Of a stretch of 64,000 nt of DNA, positions 8,951 to 60,862 are shown piece by piece. The stretch spans positions 744,001-808,000 of the forward strand of contig NZ_JAGGMN010000001.1 in the NCBI RefSeq assembly GCF_017875325.1, given 5' to 3'. The notes below the pieces were generated by a model, which was not told where the DNA came from, ran no database searches, and saw nothing but the letters and a program-made list of their open reading frames with translations. Made by a program: the position numbers and the translations under genes. Numbering within the stretch: position 1 is the stretch's first letter; every line of letters starts with the position of its first letter. Source of the stretch: Methanofollis sp. W23 (GTDB lineage: Archaea; Halobacteriota; Methanomicrobia; Methanomicrobiales; Methanofollaceae).

Positions 8951-9429
8951 ACAATAAGGGATATTTTTGGGGCATGAAGTACCTTCAGAAGCCAAATGGC
9001 AAACCTGGGTTAAAATGAGAGATCACACGACGAAAAATTATCATCTAGTATGCGTGAGGTGCGGTATCTACAAAGCCCGCAGACCAGAATGTTTTGCGTG
9101 GTCCATGGTCATGTGCACTCTTGCCCCTCCCGAAAAGACTGCCCGGTACTTCGCCCATTTTAGAATGCTCGTATAATTATTTCTCTGAATGATCAGAAGT
9201 TAACCTAAAATATTATGATTTTATGGATAGTTTTATCTAATAGAGAGATTGAGAGGGGCGGAAACTATAAGATTGCGCCAAATAACCTGATAATGGCCCC
9301 CTTTTGTACGCCACAGCGACTACAGAAAATTTCGTGCGGTCCATGACTTCAAAAAGGCCGCAAGGGTGTCTCATTATTCACCGGTCCCCATGAGGACACA
9401 GGGGGTCACGACCATTACGAGGCCAAGTT
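8951..9429. other. Upstream region of the first chemoreceptor gene
   Basis: A truncated repeat end (TATGCGTGAGG...ATCTACAAAGCCC) lies at about 9035-9080. From 9175 to 9300 the DNA becomes AT-rich and probably holds the promoter. The stretch AACCTGATAATGGCCCCCTTTTGTACG near 9285-9310 and GAGGACACAGGG just before the gene reappear upstream of the paralogous gene at 11976. No gene is supported; a 69-codon frame from 8967 is made largely of repeat sequence. Confidence 0.5.
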
Positions 9430-11436
9430 ATGGAAATACAAGAGATCATCCACGCACTGGAGATCACACCAGGAAAAGGATCCCCCGTCCAACTGGACGA
9501 GACTTCGTACGACCCCGAGATCAGGCCCCTCATCGCCGCGGTCAACTGCACCAACGCCCAGAGATGGGAAATGCAGAGAAGGATCGACGACCTCAGCACA
9601 GACCACGCGGTCTACAGAACTGCCGTCGTAGAGAGTCCGACCCCCACGCTCCTGCTGGACAGGGACCTCAGGGTCGTCAGGGCAAACAATGCCTTCACCG
9701 TGATGAGTGGGATCGGTCAGGGGCAACTGACCGGAATGAATCTGCACACACTCTCCGTCACCACCGTGAAAGGCAAGAGGATCATTGACGCACTGAGTGA
9801 TAATACCATCATATCAGGTGAATGCATCGTCGACCTCCCTGCCGGAAAGAAATATCTCATGCAGCAGGGTGTCCCGGTCCCCGACGCTGAGGGAATGCCT
9901 GGATACATCCTGGTGCACCTCAACGACGTCACCGCAGCACGTGCGCGGGAAGAAGAAGCAAGAAAGGCGATTGAAGAAGGGAGAAAGAGGAACGAATGGT
10001 TTTCAGCAGTTCTCAACAGCATCTATTATCCCATCTCTGTCACCGACCGTTCGATGAACTGGACCGGGATCAATAAGGTCTTTGCAGACATTTTCGGCGT
10101 CGACCGCACAAACGCGATCGGAAGATGCTGCAGTGCCACCAATGGCGAACTCTGTGATACTGAGAGGTGTTCCATACGGCAACTCGAAAAGAGCGGGAAG
10201 AAATGGGTCTCGTCCACCGTCGAACGCGGCGACAGGAGCCTCAAGGTCATCGCCGCTCACATCACCGATGCCCATGGCGACCGGATCGGCTACATCGAGT
10301 TGATCGAAGACATCACCGCCCTTGTGCGCCAGCAGAGAGAGGCCGAAGAGCGGGCCGTCAGGCTTGCAGAGAGTGCGCATGAGGTCGAAGTCGTCATGGA
10401 GGCCATGGCGGGAAGAGACTTCTCCCGCCAGATCGAGACCCACGAGGACGACCCCCTCAAGGACGTGAAGGAATACTACCTGGAGGCGAGGGATGCGCTG
10501 AGGAACGCGACTCTTGAACTCACCGGGGCGATCAGGGAGATCTCAGCCAGCACCGGCGAGGCGAGCCGGAGTGTCGAGGGGATCGCAGAGGCCGTCGAAC
10601 AGATCGCAGGCCAGAGCCAGAAGGCCGCCAATGACTCAAAAGATCAGCTTAAGAATATCGAAGGGTCTGCCGAGGCGATGGCTGGACTCTCGGCCTCGGT
10701 CGAGGAGATCGCCGGGACCTGCCAGGAAGTGCTGCAGGTCACCGAGAAGAGCGCCGAGATCGGTGAAGAAGCAAGCACCCTGGGCCAGACCGCGGCGGCA
10801 AAGATCGAGGAAGTCAAGGCCGCGTCCGAGGAGAGCGTGAAGGAGATCGGCAAACTCAATGCCCAGATGCACGAGATCAACAAGATCGTCAAGTTGATCA
10901 CCGACATCTCCAACCAGACCAACCTCCTTGCCCTCAACGCCGCGATCGAGGCGGCACGGGCCGGCGAGCATGGCCGCGGGTTTGCGGTCGTCGCAGGTGA
11001 GGTGCGAAACCTTGCCGGGGAGTCGAAGAAGGCCACCGGCCAGATCGAAGACCTCATCACCGCTATCTTTGCCCAGAGCACCAGGACCTCACAGGAGATC
11101 GAGACCTCCTACACCACGATCCATGACGGGATCGAACGGGTCGGCAAGACCCTCGATGCCCTCGACCAGATGGTCAGGATGTCTGAAGAGATCAGGGCAA
11201 GCGTGAACGAGATCGCCAGGGCCACCGAGGACCAGGCCAACGATACTGCCAGCGTCTCTGAGACCGTCGAACAGGTGAAGGCAAAGATGAGGGCAAACCT
11301 GAAGGCAATCGAGGAAGTGGCCGCCCTCATCGAAGAGGTCTCGGCCTCGGCTGAAGAAGTCGGCGGCGGCGCCCAGGAGGTCGCAGGCATGGCGACACGC
11401 CTGGATGAGATGATCGAAGACTTCACACTTGAATAA
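9430..11436 (+). CDS. Soluble PAS-containing methyl-accepting chemotaxis-type protein (copy 1)
   Basis: This is a 668-residue cytosolic chemoreceptor without membrane segments. PAS domains lie at about 62-170 and 186-300. The second contains a conserved cysteine cluster (Cys234, Cys242, Cys247 in [14 protein letters not shown]), which suggests metal, haem or redox sensing. A HAMP-like linker (about 320-360) leads into a long coiled-coil signalling domain. The hairpin tip is the canonical segment starting [21 protein letters not shown] (about 490-520). Glutamate-rich heptads flank it and are potential methylation sites. Start: GAGGCC lies seven bases before the ATG. The neighbour at 11976 is a close paralogue, and a multi-PAS kinase follows. 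No CheA, CheW or CheR gene is in the window. The sensory ligand is unknown. Confidence 0.92.
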
Positions 11437-11501
11437 AAGTATAGAGGAGAAGAAGAGAGGGAAGACCATCTCTCTTTTGCTCTATAAATATCTCCAATTT
11501 T

Positions 11502-11877: not shown

Positions 11878-11975
11878 TAAATGTGGCCCTGATCATCTAT
11901 AATGCCATATTTAGCCCATTTTATTCATCAATCCTTAAGAGGACACAGGGGTGGAGAACTTTCAGAGGCAAAATC

Positions 11976-13985
11976 ATGGGAATACAAAAGATCATCAGCG
12001 CCCTGGACACCAAACCAGGAAATGGGTCTCCAGTCCATCTGGACGAGACCACGTGCGACGACACCGACCTCAGGTCCCTCGCCGCCGCGGTCAACCGCAC
12101 CAACTCCCAGAGATGGGAAATGCAGAGAACCATCGACGACTTCAGCACGAGAGATACAGTCTACAAGACCGCTGTCATGGAGAGTCCCACACCTATGCTT
12201 CTGGTGGACAGAGACCTCAAGATCGTCGGAACAAACAATGCCTTCACCGCGATGAGCGGCCTCGGTCAGGTGCAACTGACCGGGATGGATCTCCACAATC
12301 TCTCCGTCACCACAGTGAAAGGCAAGAGGATCATTGACGCCATGGTTGATAATACCATCATCTCTGGTGAATCCATCATCGATCTGCCAGGCGGGAAAAA
12401 ATATCTCACACAGCGGGCCGTTCCGGTCGCGGATCCGCAGGGAGTGACGCGGTATATCCTGGTGTACCTCAAGGATCTCACTACAGAACGGGAGCAGGAC
12501 GAAAAAATTAGAAAGGCGATTGAAGAAGGGGAACAGAGAAACGAATGGTTTGCAGCCGTCCTCGACAGCATCCCCTACCCCATCTCAGTCACCGACCCGT
12601 TGATGCACTGGACCGGGGTGAACCAGGCCTTCGCCGAGACCTTCGGCATCGACCGCACCGCGGTGATCGGACAGCACTGCAGTGCCACCAACGGCGGACT
12701 CTGCCACAGCGAGAAGTGTGTCATCAGACAACTCCAGAAGAGCGGGAAGAAGCGTGTCTCGGCCATCCTCGAGCGTGGAGAGAGAACCCTCAAGGTAGGA
12801 GGCGCCCACCTCGCCACCGCCCATGGGGAGCAGATCGGCTTTATCGAGGTGATCGAGGACATTACCTCCCTCATGCGCCAGCAGAAAGAGACCGAAGAGC
12901 GCGCCGCCAGGCTTGCAGAGAGCGCACGCGAACTCAAGGCCGCCATGAGCGCCATGGCAGGGCAGGACCTTACCTTCACCCTTGAGAGCCGCGAGGACGA
13001 CCCCCTCAGGGTGGTGAAAGAGGATTATCTGGAGACCAGAGATGGGCTCAGGGGTGTGACCCTCGACCTCGCCGGGGCGATCAGAGAGATCAAAGCCGGT
13101 ACCGGGGAAGCCAGCAGGAGCGTCGAGGGGATTGCGCAGGCCGTCGAAGAGATCGCAGGCCAGAGCCAGAAAAATGCCGACGATTCCAGGGACCAACTCA
13201 CCATGATCGAAGGATCTGCCGAAGCGATGACTGATCTCTCAGCCTCAGTCGAGGAGATTGCCGGGACCTGCCAGGAAGTACTGCAGGTCACCGAGAAGAG
13301 CGCCGAGATCGGCGAAGAAGCGAACAAAATCGGACAGACCGCCGCGGCAAAGATGGAGGAGGTGAAAACCGCCTCAAAGGAGAGTGTAGAGGAGATCAGC
13401 AAACTCAATGCCCAGATGCAGGAGATCGACAAGATCGTCAAGTTGATCACTGACATCTCCAACCAGACCAACCTCCTTGCCCTCAACGCCGCGATCGAGG
13501 CAGCCAGGGCCGGCGAGCATGGCCGCGGGTTTGCGGTCGTCGCGGGCGAAGTGCGAAACCTTGCCGGGGAGTCGAAAAAGGCCACCGGCCAGATCGAAGA
13601 CCTCATCACCACAATCCATGCCCAGAGCACCAGGGCCTCACAGGAGATTGAGGGCTCATATACCAGGGTCCATGCCGGGATCGAACGGGTTGGGCAGACC
13701 CTCGACGCCCTCGACCAGATGGTCAGGATGTCTGGGGAGATCAGGGCAAGTGTGACTGAGATCGCCAGGGCCACCGAAGACCAGGCCAACGATACCACCA
13801 GGGTCACCGAGACGATGGAAGAGACAAAGAAAAAGACGAGGGCAAACCTGAAGGCCATCGAGGAAGTGGCCGCCCTCATCGAAGAGGTCTCGGCCTCGGC
13901 CGAAGAGGCCGGGGGCGGCGCCCAGGAAGTCGCCAGCATGGCGGCGCACCTGGAAGAAATGATCGACCATTTCAAGCTTGAGTGA
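11976..13985 (+). CDS. Soluble PAS-containing methyl-accepting chemotaxis-type protein (copy 2)
   Basis: This is the tandem paralogue of the preceding receptor, 669 residues from the ATG at 11976. I chose this start because [17 protein letters not shown] aligns with the N-terminus of copy 1 and because the bases before both ATGs are similar (GAGGACACAGGG, then GAGGC). An in-frame GTG at 11883 is less likely. It has two PAS domains, the same cysteine pattern ([14 protein letters not shown]), a HAMP-like linker and the canonical signalling hairpin. The tip region is almost identical to copy 1, while the PAS parts have diverged. This suggests the same kinase partner but a different input. There is no membrane segment. 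Confidence 0.92.
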
Positions 13986-14162
13986 GAGAGACGAAAAGGG
14001 GGGAAAGACGACCATTCCTGGCACATATCCCCTCACACCCCAACCGTTTTCTCTGGAAGGCATGATTTTGGGCCCCCCTATTCACGATCAGAAGAGACGG
14101 AGACACTAACCCGCCATCATGATCTCTTTTCGCGATCACAGCGGTTATATCCAGTGACCGAC

Positions 14163-38598: not shown

Positions 38599-40352
38599 GC
38601 TTTACCAATCCTCAATTCTCGATACCAATTGTATAGAGCCACCGGGTCTATTGATGCACGGGGGCGCCCGTAGGAACGTGAAGTGAAACAAAAGAAATGA
38701 TACAACAAAAGATGCCATTCGGAACAGAGAAGGCCCCTGTTTCCTGTGCTCACAACGCTGTACATTGATGTTCAACTCCGATACCCTCTGGTGCATCCGA
38801 CTGATCGGTGCACCAATTGCACCGTGGCGATCCGCGGTGGGATATACCAGGATTTCTAATAGTTAGCGTCATTGTTTGTATTAAGCGTTTCGCATGGGAC
38901 AGGAGAAAGAGAGGTCATATGATGGTGACGTCAGAGAAAAAGGTCTGAAAAAACCCTCTCTCGCACTCTTCATGGAAGGGCAGAGGTGGAGGACACCGTT
39001 CCAGAAACCGTTCTGTCGTCGGTGCCTCAGTCTGTTCAGGCTATCACAAGGGATACATCGAAGATCACAGTAATGCTCGGACTCTGGAATTTGATTGGAG
39101 TCGGAAAAGTAGAGGGATGGGTCCTGCCTGTAAAACCCCTCACTTTCCTGTCTTCCCTCATGAATCGCGCCGGGGACGCTCCTCCCGGACCCCCGGGATG
39201 AAGGTTGGGCCGGGGGGGGCGCATTCAAAATCCCTGAAGAGGGAGTGCCGTCCACGCCCCTCCCGCCAGAGAGAGTTATCCAGAGGATTTTTACAGAGCC
39301 GATTTTCTGGATTTGTAAAATTTGTCATGAACCCAAGGTTCACGCATACGCAATGAAAATAATCGGAGTTCTCTGGAGTGGGTGGGTTCCTGCTCCTCCC
39401 TCATCGCAGGACCCCACAGGAAAACACTGCTTTAGTCCCACCCCTGCCTATCTTCATCACGCGATGAAAATTGTTTTGAGGACAACTCTAGGGGGTTTCC
39501 TTACGGCAGGACCATGGACCTGGACACAGTTCAATTGCCGCCCCCGCCACTCCTCTCTCTATGGGGGGGAAGGCAACGTCCCTCGCGTGAGACGGCAGGA
39601 AAGATCCTGCGATTAAGGGCGGCATACCTCATCATCATGCCTTCCCTCATCTTCACACCAGGATGAAGATAGGGCCGGGAAGGTGAACTCAATGAACATG
39701 AAGAGGGGAGTTCTGTCCCCAACCCTATCCTGACGCGGGGGACCGAGGGGCGGTCAACCCCACGCAGAGATAGTCATCAAGAGTTTATCATGAAAATGAT
39801 CCTTAATATCATCTCTCTGGGTTTGCATAATGGTTTGAATCCACCATACGCCTTCTGGGCCGATACGAAGATTGCAGATACATCTCCTGAATAATCAGGT
39901 CTCTGCCTTCCCGCCCCCATCGTTATCCCGGTGCGGTGGTGCGGGAAGGCACGTCGATCTGATCGGCCGTCCCCAGCGCAGAACCTTCACTGATGTCTCG
40001 CGCCGGGGGGTTGCACCTCCCGGACCCCCTGGCGAGGATAGGGGGGCGGCAATGAGGTGGTTGTCTCACCAAGTGTTCTGCTCGGAGAGGAAGCATCGGT
40101 CCACACCCCCTGGAGAACCATGATCATGTTCAATCGCGTATGCGTGAGCCAAGGATTCATGCCTGATTCTACAAAGCCATTGGTACACCTGTGTGCCTGA
40201 GAATTGATGAGGGTTTTACAGGCTCGCTGTTCGAGCAGTCGCCTCCACCCTTCATCCAGATCGGTTTGCAGGAACCAGTCCTGCTTGAGGGACGCTTCCT
40301 ACTCGTGTGAATCGACCGGAGCAAAAAAGAGATGATATCCAGGAAACGCCGA
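38599..40352. repeat. 1.75-kb gene-free stretch with repeat modules
   Basis: No gene is supported. From 38599 to about 38900 lies the AT-richer upstream region of the coiled-coil gene. Repeat pieces follow: an end ATTTTTACAGAGCC at 39288-39301, a reversed type A hairpin at 39312-39358 and a GC-rich segment near 39545-39600. The module ATGAAAATGATCC...GGTTTGAATCC...GATTGCAGATACATCTCC lies at 39789-39895, a GC-rich palindrome at 40000-40050 and a near-consensus type A hairpin at 40122-40178. Confidence 0.6.
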
Positions 40353-41498
40353 TCAGAGGAAGTCGATCAGATGCCCGCTCGTCTTGTCCTGGACATAGTT
40401 GCGGTGTGGAGCCGCCTCGTGCCTTGCGCGCGGGGCCGGGGTATGGGATGCCTGAACTGCGGCATGGGTGCCGCCAAGGATCTGGGCGCTCTTGACTCCG
40501 GTCATAATGGCCATGACCCTGACCTTCCCTTCAAAGTCGTTGTTGACTCGTGCGCCCCAGATGACGTCGGCGTGGGGGTCGAGTTCATAGGTGAGAGAGC
40601 TTGCGATCTCTTCTGCGTCCTGGAGCGTGAGGTCACTGCCGCCGGTGATGTGGATGAGACTCCCTGTGGCGCCCCGGTAATCGATGTCGAGGAGCGGGTG
40701 GGAGAGACATTCGTGGACCACGCTCTCAGCCTTGTTCTGCTGCTTGCTCTCGCCGACGAGCATGCAGGCGACGCCGCCCTTGCTCATGATCGCCCGCACG
40801 TCGGCGTAGTCGATATTGATGAGAGAGGGCTGGGTGATCGTCTCTGAGATCCCCTTCACGGTCTCGGCGATGAGCTGGTCCATCACCGAGAAGGCCTGGC
40901 CCAGGGGCAGGTTGGGAACATAGTTGATGAGCCGGTTGTTGTCCAGGACAATGACCGAGTCGGCGCTGTTGGAGAGCTGCTGGAGCCCTTCCTCGGCACG
41001 CAGCAGTCTGGCCTTCTCGACCTGGAAGGGGTAACTGACCATCCCGACGACGATCGCACCCTGCTCTTTTGCGATCTGCGCGACGACCGGGGCCACCCCG
41101 GTGCCGGTGCCGCCGCCCATCCCTGCGGTAATAAAGCAGAGGTCTGCGGTTGCAAGAAGTTTTTCAAGGGTCGGGCGCGCCATCTCTGCCGCCCGCTTCC
41201 CGACGTCAGGGAACCCGCCTGCACCAAGTCCCTTGGTAAGGGACTTGCCGATAAGGACTCGCTTGTCTGCCTGGATCATGTCCAGGTGCTGCTTGTCGGT
41301 GTTGACGGCAATCGTCTCCGCCCCCTCGACCTCCAGGTGATAAAGCCGGTTGATCGTGTTGTTGCCCGCGCCGCCACAACCGACGATGACGATCCGCGGC
41401 TGACCGAGGAAATCGTCCTCGTCACCGATTATTCCTTCATTATAGATCTTCTGTTCCATCTCTGCATTTTTCAGTGCCTCGTTGATGATCGTCTGCAT
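40353..41498 (-). CDS. ftsZ: Cell division protein FtsZ
   Basis: This tubulin-like GTPase of 381 residues forms the division ring at midcell. It has an N-terminal extension (1-30), the nucleotide loop [13 protein letters not shown], the tubulin signature GGGTGTG at about 128-134 and the T7 loop NIDYADVRA with the catalytic acidic residues. The C-terminal region after 330 is variable and ends in a short tail. AGGAGG lies six bases before the ATG at 41498 and overlaps the stop of the ribbon-helix-helix gene, so the two genes form a tight operon. Confidence 0.96.
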
Positions 41499-41508
41499 CA
41501 AAATCCTC

Positions 41509-41685
41509 CTAAACCTTCACTGACACCTGGTCGCTCTCCCGCACCGCCCGGTCACCACGCTTCTCGACAAGATCCCGTACGGCGTGTCGTACCGCCTCTG
41601 ACACCGTAGGGAACTCACCATTATCGACAAGTCGCTGAAGCATTTCGACCTGCTGTTTTGGAAGTCTGATCGTGATCCGCTCCAT
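41509..41685 (-). CDS. Ribbon-helix-helix transcriptional regulator upstream of ftsZ (CdrS-like)
   Basis: This 58-residue ribbon-helix-helix protein binds DNA as a dimer. The strand [16 protein letters not shown] and the helices [26 protein letters not shown] match the fold. GAGGAGGAAG directly precedes the ATG at 41685, so the longer in-frame extension to 41913 is not used. It stops just before ftsZ, with the ftsZ ribosome site overlapping. A short RHH protein beside ftsZ is the arrangement described in haloarchaea as CdrS, which regulates division genes. The equivalence is inferred from position and size. Palindromes upstream suggest autoregulation. Confidence 0.85.
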
Positions 41686-41702
41686 CTTCCTCCTCGGGGG
41701 GG

Positions 41703-41766
41703 TATCTGACATGTGGCAGACAATTGTCTGCCCTTTGTCAGACGTTGAGATGCTATCTGTCTGATC
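41703..41766. promoter_or_regulatory. Operator candidate of the RHH-ftsZ operon
   Basis: The perfect 18-base palindrome GGCAGACAATTGTCTGCC lies at 41715-41732, 30 bases upstream of the RHH start. Related half sites are TCTGAC at 41705-41710, GTCAGAC at 41737-41743 and CTGTCTGATC near 41757-41766. A TATA-like CTTTTTATG (minus strand, about 41800-41808) lies further upstream. Such a cluster is typical of RHH dimers bound side by side. Confidence 0.6.
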
Positions 41767-41885
41767 GCTGCACCAGTTGATTGAGTTAACACAAGCATGG
41801 CATAAAAAGGTTTTGAATTGCTTTTTTTGCTGAGGAGTATTCTTATATTGCATGAAATGCCAAATTTGCGAGAATACATGTGGAT

Positions 41886-42884
41886 ATGACCTCACAGATA
41901 CCCAAAAAGACAAAACACGGCGGGACGGTGCGGTGGCACAAAAAGCATTCAGGGATGGATCTCCTTGATTTCAGTGCGAGTATCAACCCTTTCCCCCCGG
42001 CCGTCCCTCTCACCCCGCCTGACGAAGATGCGATCACTTCCTATCCTGACGATCAGTATGAGGAGTTGAAAGAAGCGATCGCCCTCCATTTCGGGAGAAC
42101 GCCAGAGGAGGTCACCGTGGGCAACGGCTCAGTCGAGGTGATCTACACCTTCTGTGCCGCCACTCTTGGTCCTGGCAGGCGCGCCGCCATCCTCCCCCCG
42201 ACCTTCGGGGAGTACGAGATGGGGACACGCCTTGCCGGGGCAACGGTCACCGCCGATCCTGCCAGAGCTGCGGTCCGATTTCTCTGCAACCCCAACAACC
42301 CTGACGGTGCGCTCGCCAGCCGCGACGAGGTGCTCGCCCTCCTCGACGACCTCCCCTCTGGCCAACGGCTCTTTGTCGACGAGGCCTTCATCGAACTTGC
42401 CGACCCGGCCGAGAGCGTCTCTGACATATGCCACCCGGCCCTCTTTGTCTCCAGGTCGCTTACCAAGTCCTTTGCGATTCCTGGCCTGCGGTTCGGCTTT
42501 GGTCTTGGCGATCCCGACCTCGTCGCTGAACTCGAGGCACGCCGCCTCCCCTGGACCGTCAATGTTTGGGCAGAGGCCTTTGCCCTTCGCGCCCTCCGGC
42601 ACTTCGACGACCTTGCCGAGTCCAGGCAGATGATCCGCGTGGAACGGGCATGGCTCACCCGCGCCCTCCAGGGGCTCGGGCTTGTCCCTCTCTCCTCGAC
42701 TGCCAACTTCCTCCTGGTCCCGCTCCCATGCCTGGCTTCAGACCTGACCGCCGCTCTCCTGAACCACGGGGTCTTGGTGCGTGACTGCACTTCCTTCGGG
42801 CTTCCCCGCGCGATCAGGGTGGCGGTCAGGCGGCCGGACGAGAACAGGAGACTTGTGGAGGCCCTCGCCGCATGCTTGCCCTGA
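41886..42884 (+). CDS. cobD: CobD-like threonine-phosphate decarboxylase / aminotransferase
   Basis: This PLP enzyme of about 332 residues belongs to the histidinol-phosphate aminotransferase family. HGGTVRWHKKHS, DFSASINPFPP and GNGSVEVIYTF match CobD, which makes (R)-1-aminopropan-2-yl phosphate for the cobamide side chain. The lysine lies in SRSLTKSFAIPGLRFGFG and NPNNPDG binds the cofactor. The adjacent cobY, overlapping by 13 bases, supports a cobamide role. Start at ATG 41886; an in-frame GTG lies two codons earlier. A TATA-like CTTATATTG at about 41842 would serve it. An aminotransferase HisC is the alternative. Confidence 0.88.
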   Translation: MTSQIPKKTKHGGTVRWHKKHSGMDLLDFSASINPFPPAVPLTPPDEDAITSYPDDQYEELKEAIALHFGRTPEEVTVGNGSVEVIYTFCAATLGPGRRAAILPPTFGEYEMGTRLAGATVTADPARAAVRFLCNPNNPDGALASRDEVLALLDDLPSGQRLFVDEAFIELADPAESVSDICHPALFVSRSLTKSFAIPGLRFGFGLGDPDLVAELEARRLPWTVNVWAEAFALRALRHFDDLAESRQMIRVERAWLTRALQGLGLVPLSSTANFLLVPLPCLASDLTAALLNHGVLVRDCTSFGLPRAIRVAVRRPDENRRLVEALAACLP

Positions 42885-43495: not shown

Positions 43496-44561
43496 TCCCT
43501 ATTTTTCCAGGACCGTGCCTTAATGCTCTGAAGAGAGAGTTCTGTGCCGGACAGATTTTTAAGACTGGAGAATCGGCGGGGATCCTGTTTCCTCACCCTC
43601 CCTTGGCTATGAGATCGGAGTGAAAAGTCTGCAGTGAGGGGTGTCCGTTCTGATCGACATGCCTTCCCCTCTCTCGTCATGGGCCTGATTCTGCTTTGCG
43701 GTGCGACCCATAGGAAGATTGAGAATATTTTCAATTTTAGGGTTTGTAGAAATGATCTGGATGGTTCTCTCTGCGGGGTGTGTGCCGCCCCCCCTACCCC
43801 CGCGCGGAAGATAGGCGGCGGATGGCAATACCCTCTTCATGATCATTGATAGTGCCTTCCCGGCCCAATCTTCGTCCCGGGGTCCGGGGGCAGCGCCCCC
43901 GGCGCGGTCAAGGGGAGAGAAAGGCGGTTCTGTCGCGCTCATGTTGAGAATATTATCTTCTCCACGGGGCATTCGCCCCCACACTCCGACCCTCCGACGA
44001 TGAAGATCAGCATGAGATTGCCTCGTTCCAACCGTTACCCTGAGAGGGTCTGGAGGTTTAATTGGAGCATATCCCAACAGTATCCTTGGCCTGATCGATC
44101 ATCAGGATCGAGACCCCTCCAGGCCATTCTTCTGCCCCCCCACTTCAATCCTCATCCCGACGTCTGGGAGCAGCGTCCCTGGAGTGAGTGACAGAGAAAG
44201 GCGTACCGATCAGACGTGCCGTCCATAGAGAGAATGAAACAAGGCTCCTTGCTCTCTCCTGCCGGGGGAACCCCCAAGAGAGAGACCGGGCGGCAACAAC
44301 TTCTTGAAGACACCGTGAGTCCATGCATGCAGAACCACGCCAGCATCACCCATCACGCCCTCTCACAGCAGGAAGAGCGAAGAGGGTCAGGACACTCCGA
44401 CACTCCATAGCGAGTCCTCACCATTCCTGGCACCAGATCGTCTTTCTCTCTCGACCATCTGTGCGGCATCGGCTACCGATAAGAGCATCCACGAGTTTTG
44501 AGTGCGAATCCAGGATTTATCCCTCAGAAACCATATTAACCAGAACCGTTGAATTCTCTTT
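43496..44561. repeat. Gene-free 1.07-kb stretch with repeat modules
   Basis: No gene is supported. A unit end GGGTTTGTAGAAATGATC...GATGGTTCTCTC lies at about 43738-43772. It is followed by GGATGGCAATACCCTCTTCATGATCATTGATAGTGCCTTCCCG and a GC-rich palindrome (GGGGGCAGCGCCCCC, about 43887-43901), the same order as in the bounded elements. Further degenerate GC-rich pieces continue to about 44290. CCATATTAACC at about 44530 is a candidate TATA element for the next gene. Confidence 0.55.
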
Positions 44562-51651: not shown

Positions 51652-51883
51652 GGTTTTGTAGAAACCCTCACTTCCTCTCGGTGCAAGGGTGACTCAATCG
51701 TCTTCTTACATCTTCGCGCCGGTGGCGCTGCCCCCGGGCCCCCTGGACCACGATGGAGCCGGGAAGGTACAAAAAATGACCATGAAGAGGGGATTGGCGT
51801 TCACGACCTATCCTCGCGCGGGGGGTTCGGGGGGCGGCACGCTCCCCATCGAAAAGAACCATCAAGAGGGTTTCTACAGAGCC
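51652..51883. repeat. Composite repeat element with 18-bp inverted ends (232 bp)
   Basis: The left end GGTTTTGTAGAAACCCTC and right end GAGGGTTTCTACAGAGCC match at 16 of 18 positions, the best-preserved pair in the window. The inside reads as the reverse of the 11502 and 58435 elements: GC-rich palindrome, GGGAAGGTAC, then ATGACCATGAAGAGGG and a second GC-rich segment. Confidence 0.78.
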
Positions 51884-52132
51884 TGAATATCATCTCTCTG
51901 GGTTTTCATACGGGTTTGAATCCCCCCGCTCCTTCTTGACCGATACGCAGATTGTGGATACCTCTGAATGATCGGGCCTCTGCCTTCCCGCCCCTATCGT
52001 CATCCCTGGCGTCCGGGGGGGGCAACCCGGCGAGAAGATAGGGGAGGGCAGTTGAATCGCGCACGTACCCAGAAAAGGTAAGGGTTTTTACAGGGCCAAA
52101 AAAGAAAAGAAAAGATTTCAGAGAAGAGCCGC

Positions 52133-58055: not shown

Positions 58056-59262
58056 CGCCCGTCCGTCGGTGGAGACGATTAAAAAAACCATCTCATATGC
58101 TCATGTGAGGAGTGGCCTCTTGGACGAAGATTGGGCCTGGAAGGCCCAGTCAATGAAATATGAAGAGAGAAGTACCTTCCCCTCTGTAGAGATCGTCATC
58201 AGGGGACTCCTGATAGAACTGATATTTGCTATGGGGCCATCCCGGCCCTCTCGCGCGCCCCCCCCTCCTCCCAGAAGATACGGAAGATGGTGAGAGGGGA
58301 GATCCTCACCCCTTCGTTGTGCACCCATGCATCCATCACTTCTCCGGACCCCCGGAACAAGAAGACCATGAGGACAGAATGCGGTCCCTTGCGGGTCTTT
58401 GTGGCACACTTCCCGCCAGAGAGATCCTACAGAGGGCTCTGTAGAAATCCTCTGGACTGTTATCTTTGGCGGGTGCGTGCCGCCGCCGCCCCCTGGTCCC
58501 TCCGAGTGAAGATAAACGGTGGACGGCATTACGCTCTTCATGGCGATTGAGTGTGCCTTCCCGGCCCTATCTTCATCCCCGGGGGTCCGGGGACAGCGCC
58601 CCAGGCGCGGGGATGTGGGAAGGCGGTTGAATCATACTCAAATCAAAAAAGTGGTGATTTCTACAGGGCCGGATATTCAAACTTTAGGGAGGGAATGATA
58701 GTATGTTCGAGGTGATCTGCAATATTCGATAGGAACCCTGGCATGTATAGGAGAGGAAGACAGGATAGCCAGAAGCGCGACCCCTCTCGTAGAATCTTCA
58801 CTACCGTCCTGCACCGAGGGGTTGCCCCTCCCAGATCCCCTGTAGAGAGATACATGAAAGGTGGCGAATGGACAGGATTCTTTCCAGACCATGGGGCGCA
58901 GTTCTGAGTTATTTTCATACTGCGGCCATCCCAACACTCTCCAGCCTTACCCTCACAGAAGATAACGATGGACGACAGTTCAGAATTCTTACCGCCTCGT
59001 AGCACTAAGAAGCATTTATGGCCCCCTCACATCTTTGCGCCGGGGGCGACACCCTTCCCAGAGGATATCCGCGTTCGAAATGCCTTGAAAGGAGCGTTTC
59101 GGTTCGAAGGAGCGTTCAAACCTCAGAGCGTTCTGGGATCTGCTTGCTATATACTTGAGGGGTGTATCCTCTCCCTGGATTGGGGAAGGACAGGAGGATA
59201 ATATCGTTCATCTTTCGATTCCGAGATGTTTATATGGATCATTCTATCAATTGCATGATGGA
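58056..59262. repeat. Gene-free stretch with a complete repeat element
   Basis: No gene is supported. CTACAGAG-GG-CTCTGTAG at 58427-58444 marks two elements abutting end to end; the second is 58435-58670. A GC-rich piece lies near 58480. The last 100 bases before the NYN gene are AT-rich, with a TATA-like TTTATATGG at 59229-59237, 26-34 bases before its ATG, which fits a leaderless transcript. Confidence 0.55.
58435..58670. repeat. Composite repeat element with 15-bp inverted ends (236 bp)
   Basis: The left end GGCTCTGTAGAAATC and right end GATTTCTACAGGGCC match at 14 of 15 positions. The interior is GCCGCCGCCCCCTGG, GACGGCATTACGCTCTTCATGG, GTGCCTTCCCGGCCC, a GC-rich palindrome (GGGGACAGCGCCCC) and GTGGGAAGGCGG. 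The module order is the same as in 11502-11732. Confidence 0.75.
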
Positions 59263-60345: not shown

Positions 60346-60862
60346 ACGCCCTGGTGGGGGGGCCTTCTGATCCTGTGACTGAATAGGCAAGGGACGGCAG
60401 CACTCTCTGAAACAATTTTGTACTTGAGATCATCCCAGAACTCTCCTGCTCTTCCTCGTCACCGATGAAGAGCGATGGATGAGAATAAAGAGATCCCTGC
60501 GTTTTCATCGCGCAACTCTGCATTCGCCGCCTGTCCCCATGCTCGCGCTGGGAGCACTGTCCCCGGACCCCGATGATGGCGATTGGGGCGAGAAGGCAGA
60601 GCGATGATCGTGAAGACGGGACGCAGTCCTCTCCCAATCTTCATCTGCGGGAGGTCCGTAGGGTGACAGACACGCCCCCCGGACCCCCCACGACGAGGAT
60701 AGGGGTGGGGCGGCAATGAGGCGGCGGTCTCACAGATTGTCCTGTTCTGAATAGGGAGCACAGGTCCACACACTATAGAAACCCACAATCATGTTCAATC
60801 GCGTATGCGTGAACCAGGGGTTCATGCCAGATTCTACAGAGCAAAAAAAAGGAGAGTGCTTC
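60346..60862. repeat. Intergenic stretch with repeat modules
   Basis: No gene is supported. It contains module C (about 60425-60520: GATCATCCCAGAACTCTCC...AGAGATCCCTGCGTTTTCATCG), a GC-rich segment (60545-60570), another at about 60660-60705, and a near-consensus type A hairpin at 60787-60842. The latter ends GATTCTACAGAGC and abuts the T-rich 3' end of the helicase gene. Confidence 0.6.

Follow-up and report, generated by a model that had tools for sequence, protein, structure and literature searches.

RHH dimers bind DNA by inserting a two-stranded sheet, alternate residues of which contact the bases. The ribbon-helix-helix (RHH) repressors Arc, MetJ and Omega are small dimers that occupy arrays of sites separated by one helical step, in many cases within their own promoter, and we know of no link between these systems and cell division.

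The closest described system is the CdrS-FtsZ2 locus of the haloarchaea Halobacterium salinarum and Haloferax volcanii, in which a short RHH gene stands directly before ftsZ. According to the parts of the H. volcanii study drawn on here (PMC8406309), ChIP with FLAG-tagged CdrS gave 18 sites, including those at ftsZ1 (motif at -50), dacZ and the hisB/HVO_2987 pair, and the cdrS promoter is missing from this list. Of these sites, 15 are placed 41-110 nt upstream of a start; most are on the upstream side of promoters and appear to be activating, and sites at or downstream of promoters are described as usually inhibitory. Depletion and deletion data were interpreted by the authors as activation (PMC8406309, PMC7439475), and sepF as well as the cobalamin genes are down in a cdrS-ftsZ2 knock-down (PMC8406309). 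A further RHH protein, CdrL, is encoded beside cdrS; in the sections of PMC7439475 used here, its reproducible binding in Halobacterium is confined to the cdrS promoter and the protein is said to be absent outside haloarchaea. The same sections trace cdrS-ftsZ synteny as far as the Methanomicrobia, and this much was therefore known already.

The cdrS-ftsZ operon and the array in its leader

The DNA analysed here (the window) is a stretch of 64,000 nt from the 2.9-Mb genome of the archaeon Methanofollis sp. W23; the closest named loci, when compared by FtsZ, come first from Methanofollis and then from other Methanomicrobiales. The window contains a short RHH gene directly 5' of ftsZ (Table 1), with a stop codon that overlaps the ribosome site of ftsZ, just as the earlier note had described, and the two genes are predicted to form a single transcription unit. 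This gene order makes the protein a CdrS by the broader usage of PMC7439475. It passes the cut-off of Pfam RHH_1 (PF01402; 30.3 bits, cut-off 20.5), and its top NCBIfam match is the haloarchaeal CdrS equivalog NF058555 (64.7 bits, E 5.4e-18), for which the cut-off of 100 is not reached. Judged by these scores, it is a CdrS homologue outside the haloarchaeal equivalog. No CdrL gene is found beside cdrS in the window, where the upstream neighbour is a divergent cobD-like gene. The second ftsZ of the genome is located elsewhere, at 1829324 on contig 1.

The AlphaFold2 model of the RHH protein (mean pLDDT 81.7) has a strand at residues 3-7 and helices at 10-21 and 28-43. Residues R3, T5 and R7, which are invariant among 24 aligned RHH proteins, all lie inside the predicted strand, and an R-T-R strand is also found in haloarchaeal CdrS. 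A Foldseek search with the predicted structure returned no match at E 0.001, the best being a ParD-type antitoxin (E 0.37), and little is gained from it over sequence. ParD-type antitoxins are the nearest solved sequences and folds to this RHH domain, but here the partner gene is ftsZ and not a toxin gene. At the C-terminus (residues 49-58) the stretch ESDQVSFKV is well conserved across the order and may provide dimer-dimer contacts; an extra strand is predicted there at 53-57, with lower confidence.

The perfect 18-base palindrome on which the earlier note centred is the single match in the window at up to three mismatches (0.03 expected) and, extended by one more base, is unique in the 2.9-Mb genome within three mismatches. 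The related half sites reported alongside it were borne out as five TGTCWGACA-like units, each matching at 7-8 of 9 positions, which span 41703-41766 within the RHH gene leader on one exact 11-base lattice. TGTCWGACA units 11 bases apart are the definition of a CdrS operator in this analysis. Taken by itself, the half-site TCTGACA shows no enrichment across the window (7 occurrences against 9 expected); what lies beyond chance is the phasing of the units and the conservation of this phasing.

Table 1. Position of the genes, signals and lattice slots of the cdrS-ftsZ locus within the window.
Feature	Position	Strand	Basis or remark
ftsZ, RHH-linked copy	40353..41498	-	TIGR00065 416.5 bits, cut-off 295.2; start ATG 41498
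ftsZ Shine-Dalgarno AGGAGGA	41504..41510	-	sequence; overlaps RHH stop TAG 41509-41511
CdrS-like RHH gene	41509..41685	-	58 aa, MERITIRLP...
RHH gene Shine-Dalgarno GAGGAGG	41689..41695	-	sequence
Candidate operator unit, slot 0, TGTCAGATA	41703..41711	-	unit scoring, 8/9
Candidate operator unit, slot 1, TGTCTGCCA	41714..41722	-	unit scoring, 8/9
18-base palindrome GGCAGACAATTGTCTGCC, made of the arms by which slots 1 and 2 face each other	41715..41732	.	sequence and mismatch searches
Candidate operator unit, slot 2, GGGCAGACA	41725..41733	-	unit scoring, 7/9
Candidate operator unit, slot 3, CGTCTGACA	41736..41744	-	unit scoring, 8/9
Lattice slot 4, empty	41747..41755	-	filled in just 6/65 promoters
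Candidate operator unit, slot 5, GATCAGACA	41758..41766	-	unit scoring, 7/9
TATA-like box of the RHH-ftsZ operon, TTTTTATG	41801..41808	-	consensus match (predicted); centre 38 nt ahead of first unit
Divergent CobD/HisC-like aminotransferase gene, sharing its intergenic region with the RHH gene	41880..42884	+	TIGR01140 266.8 bits, below cut-off 290.55

Conservation and restriction of the lattice

The pairing of a CdrS-like RHH gene with ftsZ extends across the sampled Methanomicrobiales. Of 150 genomes searched from this order, 146 gave an RHH match (the exceptions are G013, G053, G088 and G137), and an RHH relative is present in all 80 named loci retrieved via FtsZ. In 56 of the 65 dereplicated loci a Shine-Dalgarno-like run starts no more than 4 nt from the RHH stop, and a divergent cobD-like relative adjoins cdrS-ftsZ in all 75 named loci that have more than 1200 bp upstream.

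For promoter comparison, 109 promoters with at least 150 bp (a set without L063, which has just 60 bp upstream) were reduced to 65 dissimilar ones by dereplication on shared 8-mers. In a motif-free count the commonest 6-mers of these promoters are GTCAGA, TGTCTG, GTCTGA and TGTCAG, with 127 to 157 occurrences each, compared with 6.5 to 8.0 in dinucleotide shuffles, where the top count of any 6-mer was 28. Units matching at least 7 of 9 positions number 292, whereas mononucleotide shuffles gave 20.5 on average and 29 at most. Spacings of 11, 22, 33 and 44 bases account for 101, 127, 99 and 38 pairs of such units, all remaining spacings from 5 to 45 giving single-digit counts; among the 477 pairs 5-60 nt apart, 410 fall on multiples of 11 and 67 do not. 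At least three units share one lattice in 60 of the 65 promoters. With slot 0 as the reference (hence 65/65 by definition), slots 1, 2, 3 and 5 are filled in 36, 45, 58 and 46 promoters (slot 4: Table 1), and the consensus order is slot 5, a vacant slot 4, then slots 3, 2, 1 and 0.

It is this lattice that is conserved, and not the palindrome that the earlier note proposed to look for before other RHH-ftsZ operons of the order. Among the 65 distinct promoters, 2 have the literal 18-base sequence exactly and 9 have CAGACA-N2-TGTCTG, and for this reason the palindrome was ruled out as the recognition unit. Five of the 65 promoters carry an extra single unit (8-9 of 9) farther upstream on the cobD side, at about -138 to -146 from the RHH start (L022, L026, L044 at -146, L097 at -144 and L101 at -138).

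Archaeal transcription typically starts about 25 nt past the TATA box. In all 64 promoters scored, the first scanned unit follows the TATA box, at a distance from the box centre of 21-61 nt (median 35); the TATA scan ran from -155 to -80 and the unit scan covered the last 120 nt, such that units farther upstream fall outside this count. This arrangement suggests that the array begins at or just past the expected transcription start and occupies the leader, which is the geometry of a repressor, and it is the placement downstream of the TATA box that suggests negative autoregulation.

The array is nearly private to the cdrS-ftsZ operon in methanogens. At up to one mismatch, a two-unit pattern is present in 40 of the 150 genomes of the order; by visual comparison of coordinates it adjoins the RHH gene in 36 of the 40 and stands elsewhere in 4, and the reversed pattern is found in 0 of 150. 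The four off-operon sites (G006, G142, G064 and G055) have no obvious common target in the ORF lists, and one is inside a gene. The Methanofollis sp. W23 genome lies outside the 40, its units being more degenerate and found at 2-3 mismatches. Here the pattern occurs at 8 places within three mismatches, 3 of which are the array itself, versus 2 for the reversed control; the next-best place (L114, 2 mismatches) is intergenic and the other four have 3 mismatches.

Division genes outside the operon were negative as well. No unit at 8 of 9 was found in the sepF promoters of 38 methanogen loci (1.0 expected from shuffles) or in the second-ftsZ promoters of 14 loci (16 genomes searched); the latter contain four 7-of-9 matches in 3 loci, and the start codon of L355 is doubtful. 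Because the element is missing from both kinds of promoter, a division regulon of the haloarchaeal type is not seen in methanogens, and a wider methanogen regulon is unsupported by these counts (8 versus 2 places in the W23 genome, sepF 0/38, second ftsZ 0/14).

At E 0.01 or better, RHH_1 matches only three places in the W23 genome, namely CdrS, a NikR-like protein and a weak third. Repeats of the CATAC/GTATG type were noticed by eye in the region upstream of the NikR-like gene (contig 1, 2520777; L229), which is possibly a second self-regulated RHH gene of this genome.

A profile made from 24 RHH proteins found matches in 176 of 294 phylum genomes and none in the other 118. Outside the order, 40 loci were fetched with roughly 500-800 bp upstream of cdrS, of which 38 were counted (L179 and L207, with misplaced start codons, were left out). 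FtsZ-like glycine motifs follow the RHH gene in 40/40 by a loose signature test, and no cobD match was obtained within these 40 loci. An exact GTCNGAC unit precedes cdrS-ftsZ in all 22 counted non-haloarchaeal loci, with at least two units in 18, and at least two GTCTTAC/GTAAGAC units are present in all 16 haloarchaeal loci, 3 of which have a GTCWGAC unit as well. The label haloarchaeal denotes families that have FtsZ1, CetZ, a DacZ matching the haloarchaeal model, and CdrL-like genes beside cdrS, these last in about half of the loci. Beyond the order, many spacings are multiples of 11, but 10 and 12 are also seen. Some lineages, few in number, have K for R at strand position 3 and carry TGTCGGACA or TGTCCGACA, which suggests that strand residue 3 helps to set the centre of the site.

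The element in haloarchaea

A GTCWGAC-N4-GTCWGAC pair (at least 12 of 14) occurs at a spacing of 11 in 13 of 15 haloarchaeal ftsZ1 promoters (shuffle mean 0.03), and the other spacings from 8 to 16 gave 0, save for one promoter at 15. The pair lies 20-27 nt ahead of a TATA-like box, which, with about 25 nt added, corresponds to about -50. This position fits the ChIP-mapped CdrS motif at -50, the comparison being with haloarchaea other than H. volcanii.

Exact pairs are found at 34 places in 16 of 20 haloarchaeal genomes, and the reversed pattern at none. The genes downstream include ftsZ1 at 6 places, DacZ at 2 (the one scanned matches NF041371 with 486 bits), SepF at 2 (of which one was scanned and matches PF04472), CetZ at 1 and, at 3 places, a bactofilin-like family, from which one member was scanned. 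In one genome the exact pair precedes hisB, with a divergent small protein. Other downstream genes that were scanned encode ParA-like, archaellum-related, peptidase, transporter and DUF proteins, and many of the 34 places have no assignment; the proteasome genes of the ChIP list are not among them. Of the genes found through the pattern, ftsZ1, dacZ and hisB are on the ChIP list and sepF responds in the cdrS-ftsZ2 knock-down. The position at ftsZ1 and the targets ftsZ1, dacZ and hisB agree with the published CdrS sites. As the H. volcanii ChIP motif is published as a logo figure, the proposed identity of the motif is argued from where the pair lies and which genes follow it in other haloarchaea. 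After an exact CdrS-type pair in two haloarchaea (L276, L295) there are reading frames of 50-53 aa, and the one scanned matches RHH_1 below the cut-off. A membrane protein family also recurs downstream of the haloarchaeal pair (L268, L269, L272 and L289; DUF7139 in L268).

The haloarchaeal cdrS promoter carries a different sequence. Exact GTAAGAC-N4-GTCTTAC occurs once each in 16 of 20 genomes, always just upstream of cdrS by coordinates; at one mismatch six places elsewhere are added, and the reversed control gave one match in one genome. In the 3 loci where the N-terminus of CdrL is visible, its strand reads K-[VI]-T-F-R. We infer that GTAAGAC-N4-GTCTTAC is a putative CdrL site.

The Methanofollis locus resembles the haloarchaeal CdrS-FtsZ2 locus in its gene order, its R-T-R strand and its element, which in haloarchaea is present as two units 11 bases apart at counterparts of CdrS ChIP targets. 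By contrast, the haloarchaeal element stands upstream of the ftsZ1 TATA box and also before dacZ, sepF and hisB, whereas the methanogen array is located in the cdrS leader and is lacking from the methanogen sepF and second-ftsZ promoters tested; in addition, the haloarchaeal cdrS promoter has the GTAAGAC variant, and CdrL is present. Small RHH dimers and tandem sites are likewise features of Arc, MetJ and Omega, and the 11-base step resembles the Arc subsites, but the unit sequences of these repressors differ from TGTCWGACA.

Probable function of the array

The array is probably the operator of the CdrS-like RHH protein, through which this protein would repress its own cdrS-ftsZ operon (negative autoregulation). 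It is taken as a CdrS operator because it is nearly private to the operon, because the element recurs at haloarchaeal ftsZ1, dacZ and hisB, and because CdrS ChIP peaks were published at these three genes. One RHH dimer would sit on each 9-base TGTCWGACA unit and place its two-stranded sheet in the major groove, with R3, T5 and R7 as the contacting residues. As neighbouring units are 11 bases apart, their dimers would lie on one helix face and would bind cooperatively; as the array starts at or just past the expected start and fills the leader, a row of bound dimers should stand in the way of initiation or promoter escape. In this way CdrS would limit its own operon and keep the level of FtsZ in step with its own. 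Repression of the operon is the most likely outcome, its sign being read from the geometry alone, and we infer not only this sign but also the binding of methanogen CdrS to the array and its cooperativity.

No binding data for methanogen CdrS were found in the literature searched. Counted against a CdrS operator are the absence of the cdrS promoter from the haloarchaeal ChIP list and the description of haloarchaeal CdrS as an activator, the missing element at methanogen sepF (0/38) and second-ftsZ (0/14) promoters, the missed family cut-off, the folding of the window leader RNA (better than shuffles, z -3.4), and the fact that another protein could read the array. The reading in the earlier note found support in part: the RHH-ftsZ pairing and a conserved cluster of candidate operator sites are borne out, but the suggestion that the same logic as in haloarchaea may run in methanogens did not hold up. 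In haloarchaea, as far as the cited parts of the two studies go, most CdrS sites are upstream and look activating, the cdrS promoter is unlisted, and it is CdrL that binds there (PMC8406309, PMC7439475). CdrS autoregulation in methanogens is, for these reasons, a new proposal.

It is unlikely that CdrS binds the array and activates its own operon (positive feedback), as it apparently does at haloarchaeal ftsZ1. Activation is how the haloarchaeal depletion and deletion data were read by their authors in the parts cited (PMC8406309, PMC7439475). However, within the limited scan range, the 64 scored promoters have their first scanned unit on the downstream side of the TATA box, the ftsZ1 pair of haloarchaea is upstream of it, and sites at or past a promoter usually inhibit, as stated in the part of PMC8406309 used here; five of the 65 promoters do have an added unit farther upstream, near -138 to -146.

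It is quite unlikely that the array is read by some other DNA-binding protein, in the way that CdrL seems to act at the haloarchaeal cdrS promoter. In favour of this reading, the sections cited place CdrL at the cdrS-ftsZ2 promoter of Halobacterium (PMC7439475), and haloarchaeal cdrS promoters hold the related yet distinct GTAAGAC-N4-GTCTTAC. Against this, the same sections report CdrL as absent outside haloarchaea, the three RHH_1 places of the W23 genome (a survey of the RHH fold) are CdrS, the NikR-like protein and a weak third, and the methanogen unit matches the element at haloarchaeal counterparts of CdrS targets and not the GTAAGAC variant.

Control of the divergent cobD-like gene by the array, alone or jointly with cdrS-ftsZ, is improbable. 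The constant presence of this gene (75/75 named loci with enough sequence), the few promoters with an added unit near -146 on its side, and the lowered cobalamin genes in the haloarchaeal knock-down (as given in the cited part of PMC8406309) are in its favour, and division and cobalamin synthesis may share a control. Yet the cdrS TATA box stands between the array and cobD, and the units persist outside the order, where 40 loci with roughly 500-800 bp upstream gave no cobD match.

A leader RNA element, with hairpins hiding the ribosome site or ending transcription, was rejected as highly improbable: although in some species the leader, with its inverted repeats, is predicted to fold more stably than its shuffles (z of -3.4 in the window, -4.2 in one relative and -2.7, -1.9 and -1.35 in three further leaders), the five predicted folds have no common arrangement, the single Rfam match is far under its gathering score (16.2 versus 60 bits), exact 11-base phasing is a property of the DNA helix, and the haloarchaeal ftsZ1 pair is upstream of the TATA box, outside the expected transcript.

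If the array is an operator of CdrS, a history of the two systems can be sketched, to which we give a little less than even confidence. An ancestral CdrS may have repressed its own cdrS-ftsZ operon through an 11-base array; in haloarchaea the element might then have spread upstream of ftsZ1, sepF, cetZ, dacZ and other genes, with CdrS becoming an activator, and the cdrS promoter might have passed to the newcomer CdrL (strand K-T-R versus R-T-R) as its site drifted from TGTCTGACA to TGTCTTACA. The same element on the opposite side of the promoter is a possible reason why CdrS looks activating in haloarchaea. The control of FtsZ dosage in archaea is little understood, and the array provides a candidate operator, at base level, for the ftsZ operon of methanogens and related archaea, a mutable sequence with a predicted sign of regulation. 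Neither this operator nor a site for methanogen CdrS was reported among the top matches listed from the open-licence literature; what appears to be new, within that literature, is the operator with its 11-base lattice, its near-confinement to one operon in methanogens and the difference from haloarchaea.

Two further features of the window concern repeated DNA. Diverged repeats, mostly of 40-400 bases and about 67-94% alike, are dispersed across it (39655-40180, 43724-43925, 51700-52020, 58435-58626, 60676-60856 and others), and a 2.1-kb direct duplication, 80.5% identical, is formed by 9374-11469 and 11921-14015.
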